Assembly (NCBI GenBank): GCA_002293585.1
Contig: DBDM01000144.1
Location: 1 to 13,944, forward strand
Length of the DNA stretch: 13,944 nucleotides
Source: Bacteroidales bacterium UBA932
GTDB taxonomy: Bacteria; Bacteroidota; Bacteroidia; Bacteroidales; UBA932
Direction of reading: 5' to 3'
Shown: in pieces, positions 2,470 to 13,944 of the stretch
Layout of the letters: the number at the start of each line of letters is the position of its first letter
Position numbering within the stretch: the stretch's first letter is position 1
Program-made: the position numbers and the translations under genes
Notes under the pieces: generated by a model
What the model saw: only the letters and a program-made list of their open reading frames with translations
Database searches by the model: none
What the model was told of the DNA's origin: nothing

Positions 2470-4401
2470 ATGTTCCAAAAGGCTATTTCAGGAATACTCT
2501 TATTGTTCACTATCACCTGTTTACAGGCTCAGGCGGATTACATTCCCGAAATCGCCGAGGCAGACACTGCTGTTAATTTCCTTGAGCAGGTAGTAGTTAC
2601 GGGTACGCGCACGCTGCATACGCTGAAAAATGTGCCGGTGCTCACTAAGGTGGTATCGAAAATTGAACTGAATGATATTGGAGCAGTTACAGCACTCGAC
2701 GCCTTGGAAAACCTGCTGCCGGGGCTGACTTTCAACCCCGACCCCAACCACGGCGATAATATTCAGTTACAAGGACTTGATAATAAATATATCCTTGTGC
2801 TGCTCAACGGTGAGCGGATGGTGAACGGACGGGCAGAGAATGTGAATTTTTCACGCATCAACGTAGCCGATATTCAACGGATAGAAATTATTGACGGCGC
2901 CGCTTCGGTGCTTTACGGTTCCAATGCGATCGGGGCGGTCATCAATATTATTACTAAAGAAGTGAATGAGCCGTTGGAAATATATGCCGGCGGCCGCTAC
3001 GGAAGCTACAACAGTTATGCAGGCGATGTGTCGGTGGGAGTTAAGGGGAACAAATGGTCGTCGAAAACTGTGCTGAACACTAAAGGCAGCGACGGTTACC
3101 GCGTGCAGCAAGGAATACGGGTAAGCCCTTGGGATGATTATTATATAGGGGAAACTTTCAAATTTAGTTTTAACGAAAAATTCAGCGCCGGTGTCTATGG
3201 ATCTGCCTACCTCAGCCAGTTGTGGCCCTATCAGGATATTATTCACCGGCGCGAAACGGATTACAACGCGGGCGCCTACGCCAATTGGCAAACATCAACG
3301 CATAATGTATTGAAATTTGCAGTAAATACCGATTGGTACAATGCTTACACGTTAGAAAACCATACAAATGATGAGTTGGCTTATAGTAATTATCATCTTC
3401 TTTCCGTGCATGTAACCGACACCTGGAATGCGCTGCAATGGCTGCAACTCACCGGCGGTTATGAATTCAACCGTGAGTATACCTACGCACCAGAACGCTT
3501 CGGCACAGGCAATGCTACGCATGATGTATATGAGAACAGTGTGTTTGCGCAGGGAGAGTTTAACTATTGGGATAACTTGTCTATTGTAGCCGGGGCGCGG
3601 CTGACGCAACATCCTTCGTTCGGCGTGCATTTTACGCCGAAGTTATCATTGATGTACAGGTTGGATAATTTCCGCTTCCGCGCAGGACTGAGCAACGGGT
3701 TTAAAGCACCCTCGCTGAAAGAAATGTATTATGATTTCGCCATGCCGGGCGGCTATTATATGCGGGGCAACCCTGATTTGAAGCCCGAAGCATCATGGTA
3801 TACTTCCGTTTCGGCAGAATATATTGCCGAGAAATTCAATGCTTCCGTTACGGCTTATAATAATGTCATTAATGACCGCATAGGTTACGTGGAATATAGC
3901 AGTCCGCAATATCCTTCCGGGATGTTGCAGTATGAAAATGTGGCCGAGGCTGTGATGCGCGGCATTGACCTGTCGGCGCAAGCGGAATTGGGCAGTTATT
4001 TCAACGTAACGGCCAATTACGCTTTTGCCGACACGGAGGACAAAAGTACGGGTAAACCGCTGAACGGCACCAGCAGGCACGCCTTTACCGGCGGCGTGGT
4101 GTTCCGTTATTCCGATATTAAAATAGGCCGGCAGGCATTGCCCCTGAGCTTGAATTTTTCGGGACGTATGTCCTCTCCCCGCCTCTACCGCAGCGTGAAC
4201 CAGCAGGGGATTGCCGAAGGCGCCGACACCAAAACCACGTCTATCTGGCGCGTGGTGTATACGCAAAATATATTGAACGTATGGAAATTTGCCGCTATTG
4301 AATTACAGGCCGGCATTGATAATTTATTCGACTGGACCGACCCTGTGATATCTATTAACCCAGGGCGCACGTGGTTTGTCGCATTGAAAGTAAGATTATA
4401 A
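2470..4401 (+). CDS. TonB-dependent outer-membrane receptor, HmuR-like (probable haem uptake)
   Basis: A 643-residue outer-membrane beta-barrel receptor that would import a ligand with TonB energy. Residues 1 to about 21 are a signal peptide (hydrophobic ILLLFTITCLQA). A TonB-box-like EQVVVTGTR follows at 39-47, then the plug (about 50-165, with LLNGERM and IEIIDGAASVLYGSNAIGAVINI), then the barrel ending in WFVALKVRL. There is no SusC-type carboxypeptidase-like N-terminal extension. FKAP (411-414) and NPDL (434-437) correspond to the FRAP/NPDL signatures of haem receptors such as Porphyromonas gingivalis HmuR, whose length is similar. The plug has a histidine at 94, near where HmuR uses His95, but no histidine lies between FKAP and NPDL; that segment holds M425 and M431 instead. 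The HmuY-like gene 22 bases downstream supports haem or a related ligand. The receptor class is certain; the ligand is inferred. Confidence 0.85.
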   Translation: MFQKAISGILLLFTITCLQAQADYIPEIAEADTAVNFLEQVVVTGTRTLHTLKNVPVLTKVVSKIELNDIGAVTALDALENLLPGLTFNPDPNHGDNIQLQGLDNKYILVLLNGERMVNGRAENVNFSRINVADIQRIEIIDGAASVLYGSNAIGAVINIITKEVNEPLEIYAGGRYGSYNSYAGDVSVGVKGNKWSSKTVLNTKGSDGYRVQQGIRVSPWDDYYIGETFKFSFNEKFSAGVYGSAYLSQLWPYQDIIHRRETDYNAGAYANWQTSTHNVLKFAVNTDWYNAYTLENHTNDELAYSNYHLLSVHVTDTWNALQWLQLTGGYEFNREYTYAPERFGTGNATHDVYENSVFAQGEFNYWDNLSIVAGARLTQHPSFGVHFTPKLSLMYRLDNFRFRAGLSNGFKAPSLKEMYYDFAMPGGYYMRGNPDLKPEASWYTSVSAEYIAEKFNASVTAYNNVINDRIGYVEYSSPQYPSGMLQYENVAEAVMRGIDLSAQAELGSYFNVTANYAFADTEDKSTGKPLNGTSRHAFTGGVVFRYSDIKIGRQALPLSLNFSGRMSSPRLYRSVNQQGIAEGADTKTTSIWRVVYTQNILNVWKFAAIELQAGIDNLFDWTDPVISINPGRTWFVALKVRL

Positions 4402-4423
4402 AAATAAACAAAAACAACATAGT

Positions 4424-5071
4424 ATGAATACAAAATTATATCTTTTCGCTATTGTAATATTGTTGGCATGTATCTCCTGTGATAAAAGTACAGATGACCT
4501 GCAACCCGGCACCGGCACTGAGGTTACTATTGCTACTGCTTACGGTAAATGGACTTACTTTTCTTTCGCCAAAGGCGACACTGTGGGGACCGGCGTTGCC
4601 AATGCCATTACAGATTCCGAGTGGAGCGAGCGCACCGACTGGGATTTGGCCTTTCTGATCAATAATGTGCGCACCAACAGCGGCACTTCCGGCATGGGAC
4701 AAGGCGGCGCGTATTACGCCGAAACTGCCGATTTTCAATCGGTGAATGGTGCTAAAATCAAAGGGTATACTGTGGACACCAATGTGGACAATATCATGTA
4801 CAACATGCCGCCCATACCCGGCGTAGGGATGGGCACGGTGTCCGTCAATGCGGAGCTGGCCACATGGACAACCCCGAATGAAGCCGACAAGACTTTTGAT
4901 GTTAACCCCCGAATTTTTGTGGTGAAGACAGCCGATGGCAAGTACGCGAAAATCTATCTAAAAAGTATAACCACAGACCCCCAAAATCCCCGCACGGGAA
5001 GATTGGTGACCATGGAGTATTTTTACCAACCCGACGGCAGCCGGTTTTTAGGAACGGTTATAGAGGAATAA
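4424..5071 (+). CDS. HmuY-like surface lipoprotein (haemophore family), histidine-free
   Basis: A 215-residue lipoprotein. The N-terminal hydrophobic stretch ends in LACISC, with C19 as the likely lipidated cysteine, followed by acidic residues (DKSTDD) as often seen on surface-exposed Bacteroidota lipoproteins. The mature part resembles the HmuY family: YGKWTYFSFAKG (40-51), WDLAF (73-77), RTNSGTSG (83-90). Size equals that of P. gingivalis HmuY, which strips haem from host proteins and hands it to HmuR (family knowledge). HmuY binds haem through two histidines, yet this protein contains no histidine anywhere. Methionines at 91, 125, 128, 136 and 197 could act instead, as reported for Tannerella and Prevotella homologues. 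Position 22 bases after the receptor gene indicates one operon. Haem binding is an inference; the family call is fairly firm. Confidence 0.8.
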   Translation: MNTKLYLFAIVILLACISCDKSTDDLQPGTGTEVTIATAYGKWTYFSFAKGDTVGTGVANAITDSEWSERTDWDLAFLINNVRTNSGTSGMGQGGAYYAETADFQSVNGAKIKGYTVDTNVDNIMYNMPPIPGVGMGTVSVNAELATWTTPNEADKTFDVNPRIFVVKTADGKYAKIYLKSITTDPQNPRTGRLVTMEYFYQPDGSRFLGTVIEE

Positions 5072-8212: not shown

Positions 8213-8977
8213 TCAGTCATTATTTTCCGCTTCTTTGATGCGCAGTAAAATAACGCTGACATTGTCTTTGCCACCGGCCTGCTTGGCTGCTTCCACCAAT
8301 GCCGTGGCGGTGGGTGTTTCGCCCGACAGGATTTGCTCTATCGCTTCGTCGGCCACCATGTCGCAAAGACCATCGGAACAGATAAGGAAAAGGTCGTCGT
8401 CATAGAGTTGTCCTGTGAGGCCTTTGACTTCAACAAAGGCCGTTGCGCCGGCGCCGAGCGAATTGTATATCTGGTTGGCGGGCAAGGAATGATCGCCGGT
8501 GAGTTCGCGCATGGAATGGTCGGTGGACAGCTGGCGGAGAATGCCGTTACGGAAACGGTATAAGCGACTGTCGCCAATGTTGAGTGCAAAAATAAATTCA
8601 CCGTAAAACAACAGGCCGCAAAAGGTGGTGCCCATGCCATCATATTCGGGGGAACGGCGTCCCTGCTCCAAAATATGCCGGTGGGCGTTCTCTGTCCATT
8701 CCTTCACTTTGTCGGTGAGGTCGCCTGCCGATAAACCATCGGGAAGATCCAGCACAAAGGCTGCAAAAAACTGGGCAGCAAACTCGGAGGCAACTTCTCC
8801 CCCATTGTGCCCACCCATGCCGTCGGCCACTATAGCGGCGAAACGCGCATTATCCCCGATTTCCCAATCAGTCGTTTCCGCCTTATCGCGAAACAATTCG
8901 CCGCCCAACAAAATCATATCTTCATTGTTTTGCCTTACGCAGCCTCTGTCGCAGTGTATATCGGATTTTATTAACAT
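8213..8977 (-). CDS. PP2C-family Ser/Thr protein phosphatase
   Basis: A 254-residue cytoplasmic metal-dependent phosphatase that removes phosphate from Ser/Thr residues. The whole PP2C core is present: VRQNNED (14-20), VADGMGGHNGGEVAS (50-64, with D52), GMGTTF (114-119), NIGDSRLYRF (133-142), DHS (153-155), LICSDGL (199-204, with D202) and GGKDNVSVILL (235-245, with D238). All expected Mn/Mg ligands are there, so it should be active. There is no signal peptide, membrane segment or extra domain; length is typical of bacterial Stp/PrpC enzymes. It is the last gene of the operon and starts 3 bases after the stop of the FHA gene, so the two are almost certainly translated from one message. The context suggests that it reverses the phosphorylation read by the FHA domain. 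The matching kinase is not in the window. Confidence 0.93.
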   Translation of the reverse strand: MLIKSDIHCDRGCVRQNNEDMILLGGELFRDKAETTDWEIGDNARFAAIVADGMGGHNGGEVASEFAAQFFAAFVLDLPDGLSAGDLTDKVKEWTENAHRHILEQGRRSPEYDGMGTTFCGLLFYGEFIFALNIGDSRLYRFRNGILRQLSTDHSMRELTGDHSLPANQIYNSLGAGATAFVEVKGLTGQLYDDDLFLICSDGLCDMVADEAIEQILSGETPTATALVEAAKQAGGKDNVSVILLRIKEAENND

Positions 8978-8980
8978 AAG

Positions 8981-9667
8981 CTATTCGCTAACTACAAATT
9001 TCAAATCATAGAAGGCTATCGTATCGCCAAGCCTGAACACCGCAGGTTGGTGGGCAGCGAGCTTTTGTCCATTGAGGAAAGTACCGTTGGACGAATCCAA
9101 ATCGACAATTTCCCACGCTCCGACGGCATTGACCTGCACACGAGCGTGTGTGCCCGAAACATAGCCCTGGCTGCCGAACACATGCACGTAATCGCCCGTA
9201 CGCCTTCCGACAACAGCGCCGTTCTTCAGTTCCAGGCGGGCGTTGAGCGCCGCGCACACAAGGCACTTCGGCTCGGCGGGAGCAGCGGACGGACGGACGG
9301 TGTTCTCAGACGTAGCGGGCTGTGCAACCGATGGCGGCGGCTGGCCTACGGCAGTTGTTTGCAACGGTGTGACAACCGGCTGTGGCGGCGTCACTGTTGG
9401 CTGCGGCGGCGCTGATACCGGCGCGGTGGCCGTTCCCACTGCAGGGGCAGCGGAAGGCATAGGAGCAGATGATGGCGCAGGCGGCAACGGCTGGTTATTC
9501 GCTGCATCCTTTGCCAGTACAAGCGCTGCGCCACACTGTCCGCAGACTTTACTACCTTTCTTAAAACCGTGAACCGGGCAAAGTTTCAACTCTTCGCCAC
9601 ACTGGTCACAGTAAAAACTGTCGTTTTCTATTTCTTTGCCGCAAAACGGACATTTAACTAATTCCAT
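8981..9667 (-). CDS. Double zinc-ribbon protein with C-terminal FHA domain
   Basis: A 228-residue soluble adaptor-like protein. Residues 6-23 are a CX2C-X10-CX2C zinc ribbon (C6, C9, C20, C23). A second metal knuckle follows with C30, H33, C42 and C45 (CPVHG then CGQCG). Residues about 55-133 are a flexible Pro/Ala/Thr-rich linker with the near repeat PPQPTVTPPQPVVTP. Residues about 144-226 form an FHA domain that should bind phosphothreonine peptides: GRR at 154-156, VSGTH at 170-174, SSNGTFLNG at 192-200, and LGDTIAF near the end. The key Arg, Ser, His and Asn residues appear intact. A further CLVC (135-138) sits just before the FHA fold. It lies 2 bases after the AAA+ gene and 3 before the phosphatase gene, so it probably links phosphorylation state to the AAA+ machine. 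The partner protein is not known. Confidence 0.88.
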   Translation of the reverse strand: MELVKCPFCGKEIENDSFYCDQCGEELKLCPVHGFKKGSKVCGQCGAALVLAKDAANNQPLPPAPSSAPMPSAAPAVGTATAPVSAPPQPTVTPPQPVVTPLQTTAVGQPPPSVAQPATSENTVRPSAAPAEPKCLVCAALNARLELKNGAVVGRRTGDYVHVFGSQGYVSGTHARVQVNAVGAWEIVDLDSSNGTFLNGQKLAAHQPAVFRLGDTIAFYDLKFVVSE

Positions 9668-9669
9668 AA

Positions 9670-12600
9670 TTATTCAAAGTCTTCAACAATTAATTGTTTA
9701 AACGCATTTTTATCAAAATCCGGATTGTCCATAATCTTCACTAAGCGGGAAGATTGATTTTTCTTTACCCTGTCAAAATAATTATTCACTTCGCGGGCAT
9801 TGGCAAAGTTCTTGCCACGATGGCCGTACAGTTCATTGAAGTATTGCCGCATCATGGTTTCCGCCTCCGGCGTCAGTTCTAAATGATCCTTTGCCGCTTT
9901 CAGCAAAAAGATGTTCGCCATTTCCTCTCCGGTATAATCTTCAAAATGGATGGTCTTGGTGAACCGGCTTTCCAATCCGCTGTTAGTATCGATCCACTGC
10001 TGCATTTCCTTCGGATAACCGGCAGCAATAAACACCATCTTCCCTTTATAATCAAGCATCATCGGCAGCATCGTATCGGTAGCTTCCTGTCCGAAATCGT
10101 TACCTACGCCTTTGAGCGAATAGGCCTCGTCGATGAAGAACACGCCACCCACTGCTCCTTTTACCGCTTTTTCTGTCTGCGGAGCAGTCTGTCCGACAAA
10201 TTGGGCTACCAGATCCTTGCGCGTAACTTCCACCAGTTTATTGGTCGGCAGCACGCCCAGGGAATAAAAGATATCCGCCATGATACGTGCCACCGTAGTT
10301 TTCCCGGTGCCGGGATTACCCACAAACAAATAATGGTCGCTCACACCCTGGAACTTCTTACCCAGCGCTTCCGCCTTCTTGCGCTCCACTTCAATGTATG
10401 ATGCAATCTCGCGCACTTCACGCTTCACCGCTTCCAGCCCAATCAGGTTATCAAGTTCCTTCATACATTCGTTGATGTCTATAGCTTTCGGCGCATCGTA
10501 GGGAATATCATCGACCTCAAGGGTAGCATAGACTTCCCTGGTTATTTCCTCTCCTCTGTTCATCGCCCCTGCCAGTCGGTTCGACTTGCGAATCTTCGCT
10601 TTATCCAACAGTTTGGTCATCTCGCCTGCATTGCCGAAATTCGCCGCCTTGGCGTCTACCATCTGCGCCACTAACTTTTTCAGGCGCTCTTTCGCTTCAT
10701 CGGTAAGAGTCAATCCCTGCTTTTTAGCATTCAGCATAAATATGTCGACGAGCTGCGGCATAGTATAATCTTCGATATGCAGGAAGGTGGTAAAGCGGCG
10801 TTTGAAGCCGGGATTGGCATTGTCAATAAACTCTTCCATCTCCTTGCGGTAACCGGCGCACACCACCACAAATTTTCCGGCATCCTTCACCATGCGCGTC
10901 ATCAGTGCTTCCACCGCTTCCTGCCCCGACTTATCCTGATTACCGGCCTTATCCATGGCCGTCAGCGTATAGGCCTCGTCAATAAACAAGATACCACCCA
11001 TCGCCTCATCGCAAGCCTTATCCGTTACTTTGGCTGTTTCGTTCTGGAAAGAAGACAACAGGTTCTTGCGTTCTTTTTCCACTACTTTCGCGGTGGGTAA
11101 AAGGCCTACAGCTTTAAAGATTTCGCCTAACTTCAAGGCAATGGTCGTCTTTCCCGTTCCCGGATTTCCTGTGATCACAATATGGACATTGGTCAGTTCG
11201 GCATCTGCAAAACCACGTTCCATCATTTTCTTATCCATCATCAGTTTGTTGGCCAATGCGCGGATCTCCTTCTTCACACTGTCCATGCCGATAAATTCGT
11301 CCAGCTCAGCCAGTATGCCGTCCAGATCTTTTTCCTTCATGTTTTCTTCCCCTTCAATATCTACGCGCGCAAGAATACTGAGCATATCGGGGGTATAATC
11401 AGGCGTTCCTTTTAGCGCCTGCAAGCGCATACCCTGATTCTTCAAGGCCTTGTCAAAGGCGTTCCGCACTTCGCGGGCATTGCCGAATGACTTAGTGTTG
11501 CGGCCGATATACATCTTTTTGAAATAATTGCCAATATGTTTTTCCGCCTCTTCATCCAATACTAATTTCTCTTTCGTCACCATCCGGCGGAAAATCTCGG
11601 TCAGCTCCTCCGCTTTGTAGTCGCGGAAATTCACCGTTTCATTAAAGCGCGACGCCATACCGGAATTGGCCGTTAGAAAATCAGCCATTTCCTTGGAATA
11701 GCCGGCAGCAATGCAGACAAACTTTCCACGGTTGTCTTCCACCAGCTTCAACAAAGTGTCGATGGCCTCCTGCCCGAAATTATCGCTGTCGCTTTGCTTG
11801 AGTGCATAAGCTTCGTCCACAAAAAGAATACCACCCATAGCACGATCCACGGCATCCTGCACCGCCAGCGCTGTCTGCCCCACATAGCCGGCCACCAGCT
11901 GACTCCTGTCCACTTCCACCAACTGTCCGGTAGGCAATACATCCAGCGAGTTGAGAATGTCTGCAAAAACACGGGCAATGGTGGTTTTTCCCGTGCCGGG
12001 ATTGCCCAAAAAGAGAAAATGGTCTTTAACCTCCCGCTTGGCATTGCCACCTTTGCGCTCACGCTCAAGATCCATTTTATGAATCAGTTTCTGTATGGTT
12101 TCCTTAATGTCATCAATACCTACAAACTCATCGAGCTCGGCCATGATTTCATCATAGGTTTTCCGGCGGAACTCCATACCCTGAATATCATCAGGCAGCA
12201 CGGCCTTCGCCTTAGGGTCACGCTTGATGGTCGTGGCATAAATCTTCTCTGCTTTTTGAATGGCTAAGTGGGCATTACCGAAGTCCGACTTTTTGTTGCG
12301 TATTTCGTATTTGAATATCCGTTCGAGTTTTTCCCGTGCATCATCCGGCAAGTCCAGATCATCATCCTTCAATCGTCCGGCACAAATTTCCAGCAATTCT
12401 TCCGCCGAAAAATCCTTCAAATCGAAATGGTATTCAAAGCGGTTGGCCACGTCGGGATTGGTAATCATAAATGTTTTCAGTCCCGACAATCCCGACAGAA
12501 TCACAATAGGATCATTGTTCCACTCGTCGTTCATGCACTTGAATAATTTATCAAGCTTGTTGATGTCGTCGGAAGCCTTTTGCGGCAACAGCTTTTGCGC

Positions 12601-13023
12601 ATTTTCTATAACCAGCAGGCCACCCTTCGCTTTCTTGATATTCTCACTCCAGTTATCCACCTTGTCATCTTTCTTCGAAAAATCTTCGTAATCCACAGCG
12701 TCAACAATCACCGCCTTCGGATTTTTGACCACATCCGTAGAATAGAGCAGGTGCTGCAACACGTCTACCAGCTTAGTTTTTCCGGTACCCGTGTTCCCGG
12801 TAATGACCATATCCATGCCCAGGCGTTTTTTCACCCCTGTGGCTTTGGCCCTTTCCTGAATACTTTCGCAGGTTTTGACCAAATCCTGCAATTGGTTTTT
12901 CACCTGTTCCATCCCCACCAGTGCCTGCAAGGGGGCGTTGGATTTGGTAACCACATTGGCACCACACCATTTGCAGTAAACGGCTTTATCGCGATTCGGC
13001 TTATTGCATTTCGGACAATTCAT
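9670..13023 (-). CDS. Zinc ribbon protein with four tandem CbxX/CfqX-type AAA+ modules
   Basis: A 1117-residue soluble ATPase. Residues 3-20 form a CX2C-X10-CX2C zinc ribbon. Four AAA+ modules follow, each opened by a short LxxLVG/LDEFVG-type motif: module 1 about 32-270, module 2 297-535, module 3 573-815, module 4 856-1100. Walker A is GNTGTGKT (76-83) in module 1 and GNPGTGKT (340, 619, 902) in the others. Walker B is intact in modules 2-4 (D403-E404, D682-E683, D965-E966) but reads E140-N141 in module 1. Pore-loop-like GYVGQTA (379) and QFVGQTA (941) occur in modules 2 and 4, but SSFQNETA (657) in module 3. Arginine fingers are R195, R459, R743 and R1020. The sensor-2 Arg is present at 517 and 1077, but is His252 in module 1 and Gly800 in module 3. 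CbxX/CfqX relatives remodel proteins (CbbX on Rubisco, EccA in type VII secretion, SpoVK) and normally carry one such domain. The substrate here is unknown. Confidence 0.9.
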   Translation of the reverse strand: MNCPKCNKPNRDKAVYCKWCGANVVTKSNAPLQALVGMEQVKNQLQDLVKTCESIQERAKATGVKKRLGMDMVITGNTGTGKTKLVDVLQHLLYSTDVVKNPKAVIVDAVDYEDFSKKDDKVDNWSENIKKAKGGLLVIENAQKLLPQKASDDINKLDKLFKCMNDEWNNDPIVILSGLSGLKTFMITNPDVANRFEYHFDLKDFSAEELLEICAGRLKDDDLDLPDDAREKLERIFKYEIRNKKSDFGNAHLAIQKAEKIYATTIKRDPKAKAVLPDDIQGMEFRRKTYDEIMAELDEFVGIDDIKETIQKLIHKMDLERERKGGNAKREVKDHFLFLGNPGTGKTTIARVFADILNSLDVLPTGQLVEVDRSQLVAGYVGQTALAVQDAVDRAMGGILFVDEAYALKQSDSDNFGQEAIDTLLKLVEDNRGKFVCIAAGYSKEMADFLTANSGMASRFNETVNFRDYKAEELTEIFRRMVTKEKLVLDEEAEKHIGNYFKKMYIGRNTKSFGNAREVRNAFDKALKNQGMRLQALKGTPDYTPDMLSILARVDIEGEENMKEKDLDGILAELDEFIGMDSVKKEIRALANKLMMDKKMMERGFADAELTNVHIVITGNPGTGKTTIALKLGEIFKAVGLLPTAKVVEKERKNLLSSFQNETAKVTDKACDEAMGGILFIDEAYTLTAMDKAGNQDKSGQEAVEALMTRMVKDAGKFVVVCAGYRKEMEEFIDNANPGFKRRFTTFLHIEDYTMPQLVDIFMLNAKKQGLTLTDEAKERLKKLVAQMVDAKAANFGNAGEMTKLLDKAKIRKSNRLAGAMNRGEEITREVYATLEVDDIPYDAPKAIDINECMKELDNLIGLEAVKREVREIASYIEVERKKAEALGKKFQGVSDHYLFVGNPGTGKTTVARIMADIFYSLGVLPTNKLVEVTRKDLVAQFVGQTAPQTEKAVKGAVGGVFFIDEAYSLKGVGNDFGQEATDTMLPMMLDYKGKMVFIAAGYPKEMQQWIDTNSGLESRFTKTIHFEDYTGEEMANIFLLKAAKDHLELTPEAETMMRQYFNELYGHRGKNFANAREVNNYFDRVKKNQSSRLVKIMDNPDFDKNAFKQLIVEDFE

Positions 13024-13050
13024 TGGCTTTATTGTAATTTATTATGTACG

Positions 13051-13944
13051 TTATTTAATAATGATCTCTTCAAAAATGTAATTATTGGTTCCCTGCAAGG
13101 AGAAGCGGGTACCGCTTACGCCTTCAAAAACAAGATAAAAACCGGTAGTCACTTTCGTGAAATGCTCATCTTCGCCCTTGTCCACGGGCTTCCACGTTTG
13201 CGAAGCGTTGTCCAGATTAGTCAATACAATTTGGTTACGGTTGTTCCAAAATGCACCGTAATCGCCATCGCCGCCATTGCCTTGCGCTGCTCCCGTAAAG
13301 AACAGATAAAACTTGCCCCCTTCACTATTCGCCCTGTCGATGAACAGTTGTTTATTAGCACCATTTTGTTTGGCGCGGGGCCGCGGGTTAAAACTATAGG
13401 GCCACTGCGAAGCTTTTGCCGCCGCGACTTTTGTTTCTGTTGGTACTGGTATTGGTGCCGCTGCAGGTGCTTGCTTAGGCGTTTCCTGCACTGCCGCCGG
13501 CGCCTTTGTTCCGGCCGCTGCTTTTGTTGCAGGAGGTGTTTTTGCACCTGCCGAAGAAGCATTGGAAGCGGTTTCTCGGCTTGACGTTGCTGTTCCTTTG
13601 GAGAAATTGAAGTTCACCTGCTTTTTCGTCGTATAATTCTGATAAATCCCGGAGAACGTCGTGAAATCATCGTTGAACGTACCATTATATTCACCGTCTA
13701 AAACGCCATTATCGGGACGCGTATCGTCAAAATGGAAAGTCTTTTCCTCCATATCCACCGTGCCCTTCAGCGTTTCGGTTGTTTGGTTGGTATATCGTAC
13801 GCTGATGCGGGCATTCACTTCATGTGCAGCGGCATCAACTATGGTAAACGTAGCATTGCGGCCTTCAAAGGTGCCCTGCCATTCGCCTTTCAACGCCTGG
13901 GAAATTTCTGCATCAATCAGCCATCCTGCGCTTTGCGATGAAGC
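13051..13944 (-). CDS. Unrecognised protein with two beta-rich domains and an Ala/Pro linker (partial, 5' end outside)
   Basis: The frame stays open to the right edge, so the gene begins outside the window; the first in-frame start-like codon (TTG at 13893) lies inside a continuing sequence (ASSQSAGWLIDAEISQALKG) and is not a convincing start. Visible are 297 residues. The first 115 or so form a beta-rich domain opening with GEWQGTFEG, with evenly spaced strands and turns (LDGEYNGTFNDD, FSGIYQNY), reminiscent of small lipocalin/avidin-like barrels; this is only a resemblance. About 65 residues of Ala/Pro/Thr/Lys-rich linker follow. The last 115 form a second beta-rich, Gly/Asn/aromatic-rich domain (FYLFFTGAAQGNGGDGDYG, SLQGTNNYIFEEIIIK). 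No catalytic motif is recognised. Whether it has a signal peptide or an N-terminal enzyme domain cannot be seen. It precedes the AAA+ gene by 27 bases on the same strand. Confidence 0.75.
   Translation of the reverse strand, partial: ASSQSAGWLIDAEISQALKGEWQGTFEGRNATFTIVDAAAHEVNARISVRYTNQTTETLKGTVDMEEKTFHFDDTRPDNGVLDGEYNGTFNDDFTTFSGIYQNYTTKKQVNFNFSKGTATSSRETASNASSAGAKTPPATKAAAGTKAPAAVQETPKQAPAAAPIPVPTETKVAAAKASQWPYSFNPRPRAKQNGANKQLFIDRANSEGGKFYLFFTGAAQGNGGDGDYGAFWNNRNQIVLTNLDNASQTWKPVDKGEDEHFTKVTTGFYLVFEGVSGTRFSLQGTNNYIFEEIIIK

Follow-up and report, generated by a model that had tools for sequence, protein, structure and literature searches.

The operon and its recurrence

The stretch of DNA analysed here (the window) comprises the first 13,944 nucleotides of contig DBDM01000144.1 from Bacteroidales bacterium UBA932. 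It ends within a contig of 28,284 bases (C157), and its right-hand part holds four open reading frames (ORFs) on the minus strand, at positions 13051-13944, 9670-13023, 8981-9667 and 8213-8977, whose coordinates confirm the intergenic gaps of 27, 2 and 3 bases given in an earlier, sequence-only reading. Followed beyond the window, the full unit comprises five genes in the 5' to 3' order ZNR-KIN-AAA-FHA-PP2C, with ZNR and most of KIN outside the window. ZNR (C157:16981-17958, minus strand) encodes 325 residues with double zinc ribbons and lies upstream of KIN (C157:13051-16941, minus strand), a serine/threonine kinase of 1296 residues with predicted membrane segments; the earlier reading had proposed looking for such a kinase to the right of the window. 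AAA (9670-13023) encodes a CbxX/SpoVK-type AAA+ protein of 1117 residues with four tandem AAA modules (Pfam AAA and AAA_lid_6) and an N-terminal zinc ribbon (12964-13017; CxxC motif). The reader of the set is the 228-residue FHA protein (8981-9667; Pfam), built from N-terminal zinc ribbons (9533-9652; CxxC pairs; PF12773, 5.1e-7), a long linker and a C-terminal FHA domain (9011-9214; PF00498, 2.3e-12), and the eraser is the 254-residue serine/threonine phosphatase PP2C (8213-8977; PF13672, 2.4e-15). The sequence-only assignments of these last three proteins are borne out by Pfam and the Walker A motifs, and for the AAA ribbon by its cysteines.

The frame at 13051-13944 is open at the right edge of the window, which is marked by a two-base run of N (C157:13945-13946), and continues over this run into the 1296-residue ORF, which holds a Thr-repeat tail, a serine/threonine kinase domain (PF00069, 3.3e-23) and hydrophobic segments. 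The part inside the window comprises two beta domains that follow the final hydrophobic segment: the first, with eight predicted strands, at 13597-13887 and the second at 13054-13347. These domains had been read as a separate two-domain beta protein; both are present, but we reject the separate gene and assign them to the C-terminus of KIN from the open frame and from gap-free homologues. In L034 (1135 residues) and L035 (1219 residues) the kinase, membrane segment and first beta domain occur in a single chain, and the database protein P0004 carries the membrane segment and beta domain. Because these proteins join the same parts, they support the KIN frame across the N run. A search with the C-terminal KIN fragment from the window returned four relatives; the second beta domain is missing from four other aligned kinases and is matched by the database protein P0001. 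Since the beta region is part of the kinase, it is more likely to be a sensor than a substrate, the two roles first suggested for it.

Among 122 loci with a CbxX-type AAA+ match, the AAA+ protein bears an N-terminal zinc ribbon in 44, and partner genes lie beside all 44: all four partners in 42 loci, with the other two (L037 and L047) cut by contig ends. Of the 78 loci without the ribbon, none has any partner. The ribbon is therefore a marker that separates the operon AAA+ proteins from other CbxX AAA+ proteins in this set, and the proposal of a fixed functional unit, made for the four genes in the window, is supported and is extended by ZNR. The order ZNR-KIN-AAA-FHA-PP2C was found in 37 of the 44 and AAA-FHA-PP2C in 43 (the exception, L037, is the locus cut by a contig end), with median gaps of -4 to 13 bp in the standard order; L049 has an extra acetyltransferase-like gene between FHA and PP2C. 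An arrangement that recurs in 44 loci is not due to chance, and the set does not depend on a single query, as 16 loci were found with AAA and 28 with KIN. The 44 loci are nevertheless not independent, 27 belonging to the Prevotella group and L048/L049 and L052/L142 being close pairs, and the 122-locus table covers KIN matches of at least 100 bits at loci with an AAA match, which omits L132 (its contig ends after KIN) and L146-L154.

The operon is patchily spread. An AAA search of 59 related genomes, that of UBA932 included, yielded long relatives in a few: L034, L035 and L036 have theirs within a full operon, L037 has one in the operon cut by a contig end, and L038-L046 hold other CbxX proteins without operon partners. 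The same query gave at least 80 loci in named genomes, and the operon is present in 11 of the loci listed, from Bacteroidia/Bacteroidales, Prevotella/Prevotellaceae and one Spirochaetia metagenome-assembled genome. An alignment of KIN found matches in 4 of 295 genomes from the order and 5 of 247 from the phylum (UBA932 included in each), and the five new loci from these two scans hold the set, L132 as far as its contig end. In the Prevotella-like genus of L051 the alignment matched 80 of 200 genomes, the centre genome included, and all 20 loci inspected, picked by hand from the 80 and mostly with frames free of stops, are complete. In the phylum of L052, Spirochaetota, 10 of 198 genomes matched (centre genome included, a second place in G637 left out), and five carry the operon.

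All 27 loci of the Prevotella group have metA directly after PP2C, and in 22 of them a match to an M13 peptidase or ABC-F gene precedes ZNR; in the other five it was not seen, some of them lying at contig ends. The corresponding site was compared in genomes without a kinase match, taken as the first 20 listed of 120. Fourteen of these have metA, and 14 of the 15 metA matches, from 13 genomes, were compared (that of G775 was left out). The M13 and metA matches lie 60-242 bp apart in 9 of the 14 loci, ABC-F adjoins metA in two, and the flanks of the remaining three are different or were not seen; no match to the five operon proteins turned up in any of the 14 (tblastn, 1e-15). As the flanking genes abut in these nine loci, the block comes and goes as one. 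The distances of all five operon proteins track those of MetA (Mantel r 0.54-0.70, p 0.001, 26 loci), and this correlation and the pattern of presence and absence are consistent with largely vertical inheritance and with loss or gain of the whole block at once. Since the block is sharply bounded and related genomes offer an empty site as control, removing it in one deletion would ask for its function.

Kinase tail, reader, eraser and motor

Residues and tail motifs were counted in 30 hand-chosen loci of the 44. In KIN, K114, D207, K209, N212, the DFG motif, P262 and E263 are kept in 30 of 30 homologues and H205 in 29, and by its sequence KIN thus has the Lys, HxD, DFG and APE elements expected of an active serine/threonine protein kinase. 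The binding-face positions G154, R155, S171, H174 and N194 of the FHA domain are invariant in the 30 as well, matching the Gly-Arg, Ser, His and Asn by which phosphothreonine readers are recognised, as are the catalytic-type aspartates D20, D52, D202 and D238 of PP2C. These kinase, PP2C and FHA positions presumably have the roles usual in their families. Zinc-ribbon cysteines occur on three of the five operon proteins (FHA, ZNR and AAA).

The kinase tails are rich in a threonine motif. Tx[RK] occurs 90 times in the 30 tails against 21.9 +/- 4.2 expected (2000 shuffles, maximum 41), and the longer Tx[RK]P 34 times against 1.5 +/- 1.2; a third pattern, the last of three tried, gave 100 against 24.4. 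A pattern match defined the tails and linkers, whose limits are approximate; the tail of L143 runs into the kinase domain and that of L155 begins upstream of its likely start. At least one copy of Tx[RK] is present in 26 of the 30 tails. In a structure model of the L034 kinase, residues 1-97 have a predicted local distance difference test score (pLDDT) below 50 and are followed by the kinase domain, a helical central part, a number of long helices and, at the C-terminus, a domain of eight strands; the tail is accordingly predicted to be disordered. Its threonine motifs are likely docking sites for the FHA protein. The linker of the FHA protein itself carries the motif ENTVRP (T123; 9290-9307), which resembles the repeats of the kinase tail of the same genome. 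A rule that each FHA linker carries its own kinase-tail motif, suggested by eye from L003 (the operon locus of UBA932), L034, L035, L048 and L052, found no support by permutation, and we keep it as an observation for L003, the only locus that stood out against its own shuffles.

The C-terminal ends of the kinases differ between lineages: beta domains here and MORN repeats in L052, both after hydrophobic segments, and SH3 in L130 and TPR in L145, both at the kinase C-terminus. Comparing whole KIN with known folds matched the kinase domain only, and a profile comparison of the KIN beta domain with the C-terminal domain of spirochaetal ZNR gave no support for a relationship (probability about 1%). 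The spirochaetal locus L145 also encodes a second kinase of 558 residues (L145:13439-15115), which matches the KIN profile and follows ZNR.

The motor belongs to the CbxX/CfqX (SpoVK/CbbX/EccA) family of AAA+ proteins, scoring 140.6 bits against the PF17866 cut-off of 24.3 and 715.8 against the TIGR02881 cut-off of 422.95 (sums over modules), and passing those of TIGR02880 and TIGR03922; the nearest solved structures among Protein Data Bank matches are CbbX and EccA1. Its four Walker A motifs lie at residues 76, 340, 619 and 902, and the evidence for its zinc ribbon is two CxxC pairs (residues 3/6 and 17/20), not a Pfam match. Module 1 (12154-12921) keeps Walker A, has a degenerate Walker B (IENAQ) and shows no pore-loop-like segment, and from these motifs it is likely to be non-hydrolysing. 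Modules 2-4 (9673-12144) keep Walker A, Walker B (DEAY) and an arginine-finger-like RF, with the pore-loop-like segments GYVGQT, SFQNET and QFVGQT; module 3 is atypical here. The same division runs through the homologues, whose tandem modules number three to five. The first retains Walker A and lacks the Walker B DE wherever the segment pattern was found, and nearly all later ones have DEAY, often together with the RF motif and often with an aromatic-x-G-x-T pore-loop-like segment. At L034 a short extra CbxX AAA fragment of 174 residues (L034:12627-13151) lies between AAA and FHA, and its search match holds one internal stop.

Possible mechanism and relation to known systems

The reading we favour, though we regard it as no better than evenly balanced, is that the five genes form an envelope-sensing switch for an AAA+ motor. 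KIN, anchored in the inner membrane with its variable C-terminal end outside, would sense the cell envelope and phosphorylate the repeated threonines of its own tail. The FHA protein would dock on the phosphorylated tail and bring the AAA+ motor to the inner membrane or switch it there, with the zinc ribbons of FHA, ZNR and AAA holding adaptor and motor together; the motor might then thread or remodel a client protein, and PP2C would reset the switch. The docking step follows the precedent of the type VI secretion system (T6SS), in which, according to PMC3953482, Fha binds phosphothreonine made by PpkA. That phosphorylation might switch a dedicated AAA+ remodeller had already been put forward in the sequence-only reading. 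It remains a supported proposal, since neither of the two tests named for it went against it, the genes being regular neighbours and no known secretion or defence locus lying just outside the window, where the neighbours scanned are unrelated and defence-system matches are at domain level only; the phosphorylation control itself is what we infer. Control of bacterial AAA+ unfoldases is generally attributed to adaptors and degrons. Here a eukaryote-like phosphorylation circuit of writer, reader and eraser is carried in a single block with one AAA+ motor. This also provides an uncharacterised CbxX subfamily with a set of partners and with a hypothesis on its regulation that can be tested.

Several observations weigh against this proposal. 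Four of the 30 kinase tails lack any Tx[RK]. Across lineages, kinase-tail and FHA-linker motifs did not co-vary significantly (permutation fraction 0.06 over 12 loci; excluded beforehand were the Prevotella group, L036, L142 and any locus lacking a usable window centred on T), and kinase and ZNR tails showed no co-variation (25 loci, 0.35). The number of hydrophobic segments varies between kinases, with fewer in L036 and L037, which makes the placement of the KIN C-terminus outside the cell uncertain, and the ankyrin repeats of L144 lie at residues 709-800, not at the kinase end. Fold matches of the first KIN beta domain, to small barrels and lipocalins, are weak (best E 1.6e-3), and because the best lie above 1e-3 a calycin-like fold is a lead only. 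Five of the 10 Spirochaetota kinase matches were not seen with the operon (two on contigs shorter than 4.3 kb), and in that phylum the position of KIN and ZNR with respect to AAA-FHA-PP2C varies. Clustering of neighbours at 16 loci yielded no recurring client gene.

In a different arrangement, unlikely but credible, the target of the motor would be the signalling complex: kinase and FHA protein would form phospho-dependent clusters at the membrane that the AAA+ protein pulls apart, giving a self-contained timer with an unseen output interaction. No sixth core gene recurred in the clustered loci or the Prevotella-group comparison, and the disordered, repeat-rich kinase tail is a plausible point for threading in. 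An output would, however, be expected of a block that 80 of 200 genomes in a genus retain, and nothing here demonstrates such clusters. We consider it decidedly unlikely that the kinase phosphorylates the AAA+ protein directly, with FHA binding the motor and the tail not serving as a dock. Tx[RK] is indeed denser in AAA (1.00 per 100 residues) than in FHA (0.79), ZNR or PP2C (0.41 each), but the kinase tail, predicted to be disordered, is about four times denser again (4.26).

An anti-phage or conflict function is improbable. It would accord with the patchy distribution and with genes beside six loci, all outside the Prevotella group, of which the DUF1963 and SUKH families are ones we take to be immunity-like: a DUF1963 gene downstream at L034:14931-15575, L036:12949-13659, L048:19489-20118 and L049:15196-15818 (Pfam on the L034 copy, the rest by BLAST cluster), and a SUKH-like gene between ZNR and KIN at L131:5289-6083 and, below the cut-off, L132:4665-5198. 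A DUF4062 protein of 1020 residues is likewise encoded after PP2C at L048:14595-17657, with a counterpart at L049:10302-13364 (Pfam on the L048 copy). Against it stand the fixed chromosomal site in the Prevotella group and the tracking of MetA distances described above, and PADLOC returned domain-level matches only, AAA to IetA and others and the kinase to mad6 and PD-T4-6, with no match for FHA, PP2C or ZNR.

It is highly improbable that the operon is a relocated regulatory arm of T6SS (PpkA-Fha-PppA) or an EccA-like part of a type VII secretion system, in spite of the shared kinase, FHA and PP2C genes and of the relation of AAA to EccA1, whose family model cut-off it passes: among 36 system-bearing draft genomes the sheath gene VipB was found in none and TssC in five, on contigs other than the operon's, and on these counts we reject T6SS membership. 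The triad of kinase, reader and eraser tied to a machine resembles the T6SS pathway without being linked to T6SS structural genes, and the operon differs from it in its several-module CbxX motor, the zinc ribbons on its FHA protein, a multi-zinc-ribbon fifth core gene and the Thr-repeat tail of its kinase. ESX core genes were absent among the neighbours scanned, no genome-wide ESX search having been made.

The AAA modules share the CbxX-CfqX family with CbbX, SpoVK and EccA and are set apart from these proteins by their number, three to five in tandem, by the degenerate first module and N-terminal zinc ribbon, and by being encoded with a kinase, an FHA protein and a phosphatase. GarA and OdhI are FHA switch proteins with a Thr motif outside the FHA domain and regulation by a serine/threonine kinase. 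The FHA protein here is comparable in its linker motif and kinase partner, and unlike them it has zinc ribbons and an operon with an AAA+ motor, with no link to 2-oxoglutarate metabolism seen. The nearest passage found in the literature concerns actinobacterial kinase-PP2C-vWA neighbours of GAP1-N2 GTPase systems (PMC7159879); it mentions neither a CbxX AAA+ nor an FHA-zinc-ribbon protein, and in the present loci neither a vWA nor a GTPase gene was seen. No description of the five-gene unit was found in literature searches, several of which demanded all terms at once and whose coverage lay outside subscription papers and preprints.

A related circuit occurs with another motor in Firmicutes. 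In the phylum of the Lachnospiraceae record L107, the KIN alignment matched 4 of 249 genomes, and all four loci (L146-L149) encode a kinase, an FHA protein with cysteine pairs, a PP2C and a Clp-type AAA+ protein (AAA_2 with ClpB_D2-small); the CbxX motor is absent from all four. A Pfam zinc ribbon is above the cut-off in the FHA protein of L149 only, and the kinase tail of L146 is a run of DQQTRREN-like repeats. Because these loci share the circuit and differ in the motor, we tentatively raise the possibility, which we think somewhat doubtful, of an undescribed class of phosphorylation-gated AAA+ machines in which a kinase with a Thr-repeat docking tail, an FHA adaptor and a PP2C eraser would be wired to different motors, a several-module CbxX protein in Bacteroidota and Spirochaetota and a Clp-type protein in Firmicutes, so that envelope signals time a dedicated unfoldase. 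Of these Firmicutes operons, L147 also contains a radical-SAM gene confirmed by Pfam, and L146 and L148 have look-alikes recognised by eye.

Neighbouring genes

The neighbours scanned around the operon are housekeeping or unrelated genes. Directly upstream of the UBA932 operon, and divergent from it, lies a gene for a 602-residue protein (C157:18126-19934, equivalent to L003:10127-11935, plus strand) that combines a long N-terminal region with a single CbxX AAA module; its relatives in L038, L044 and L045 had no operon in the stretches fetched. At the other end of the window, two adjoining small ORFs (183-861) look, judged by eye, like an MNT nucleotidyltransferase and HEPN partner. Positions 2470-5071 hold an ORF that, again by eye, resembles a TonB receptor, and after it a gene for an HmuY protein (PF14064).

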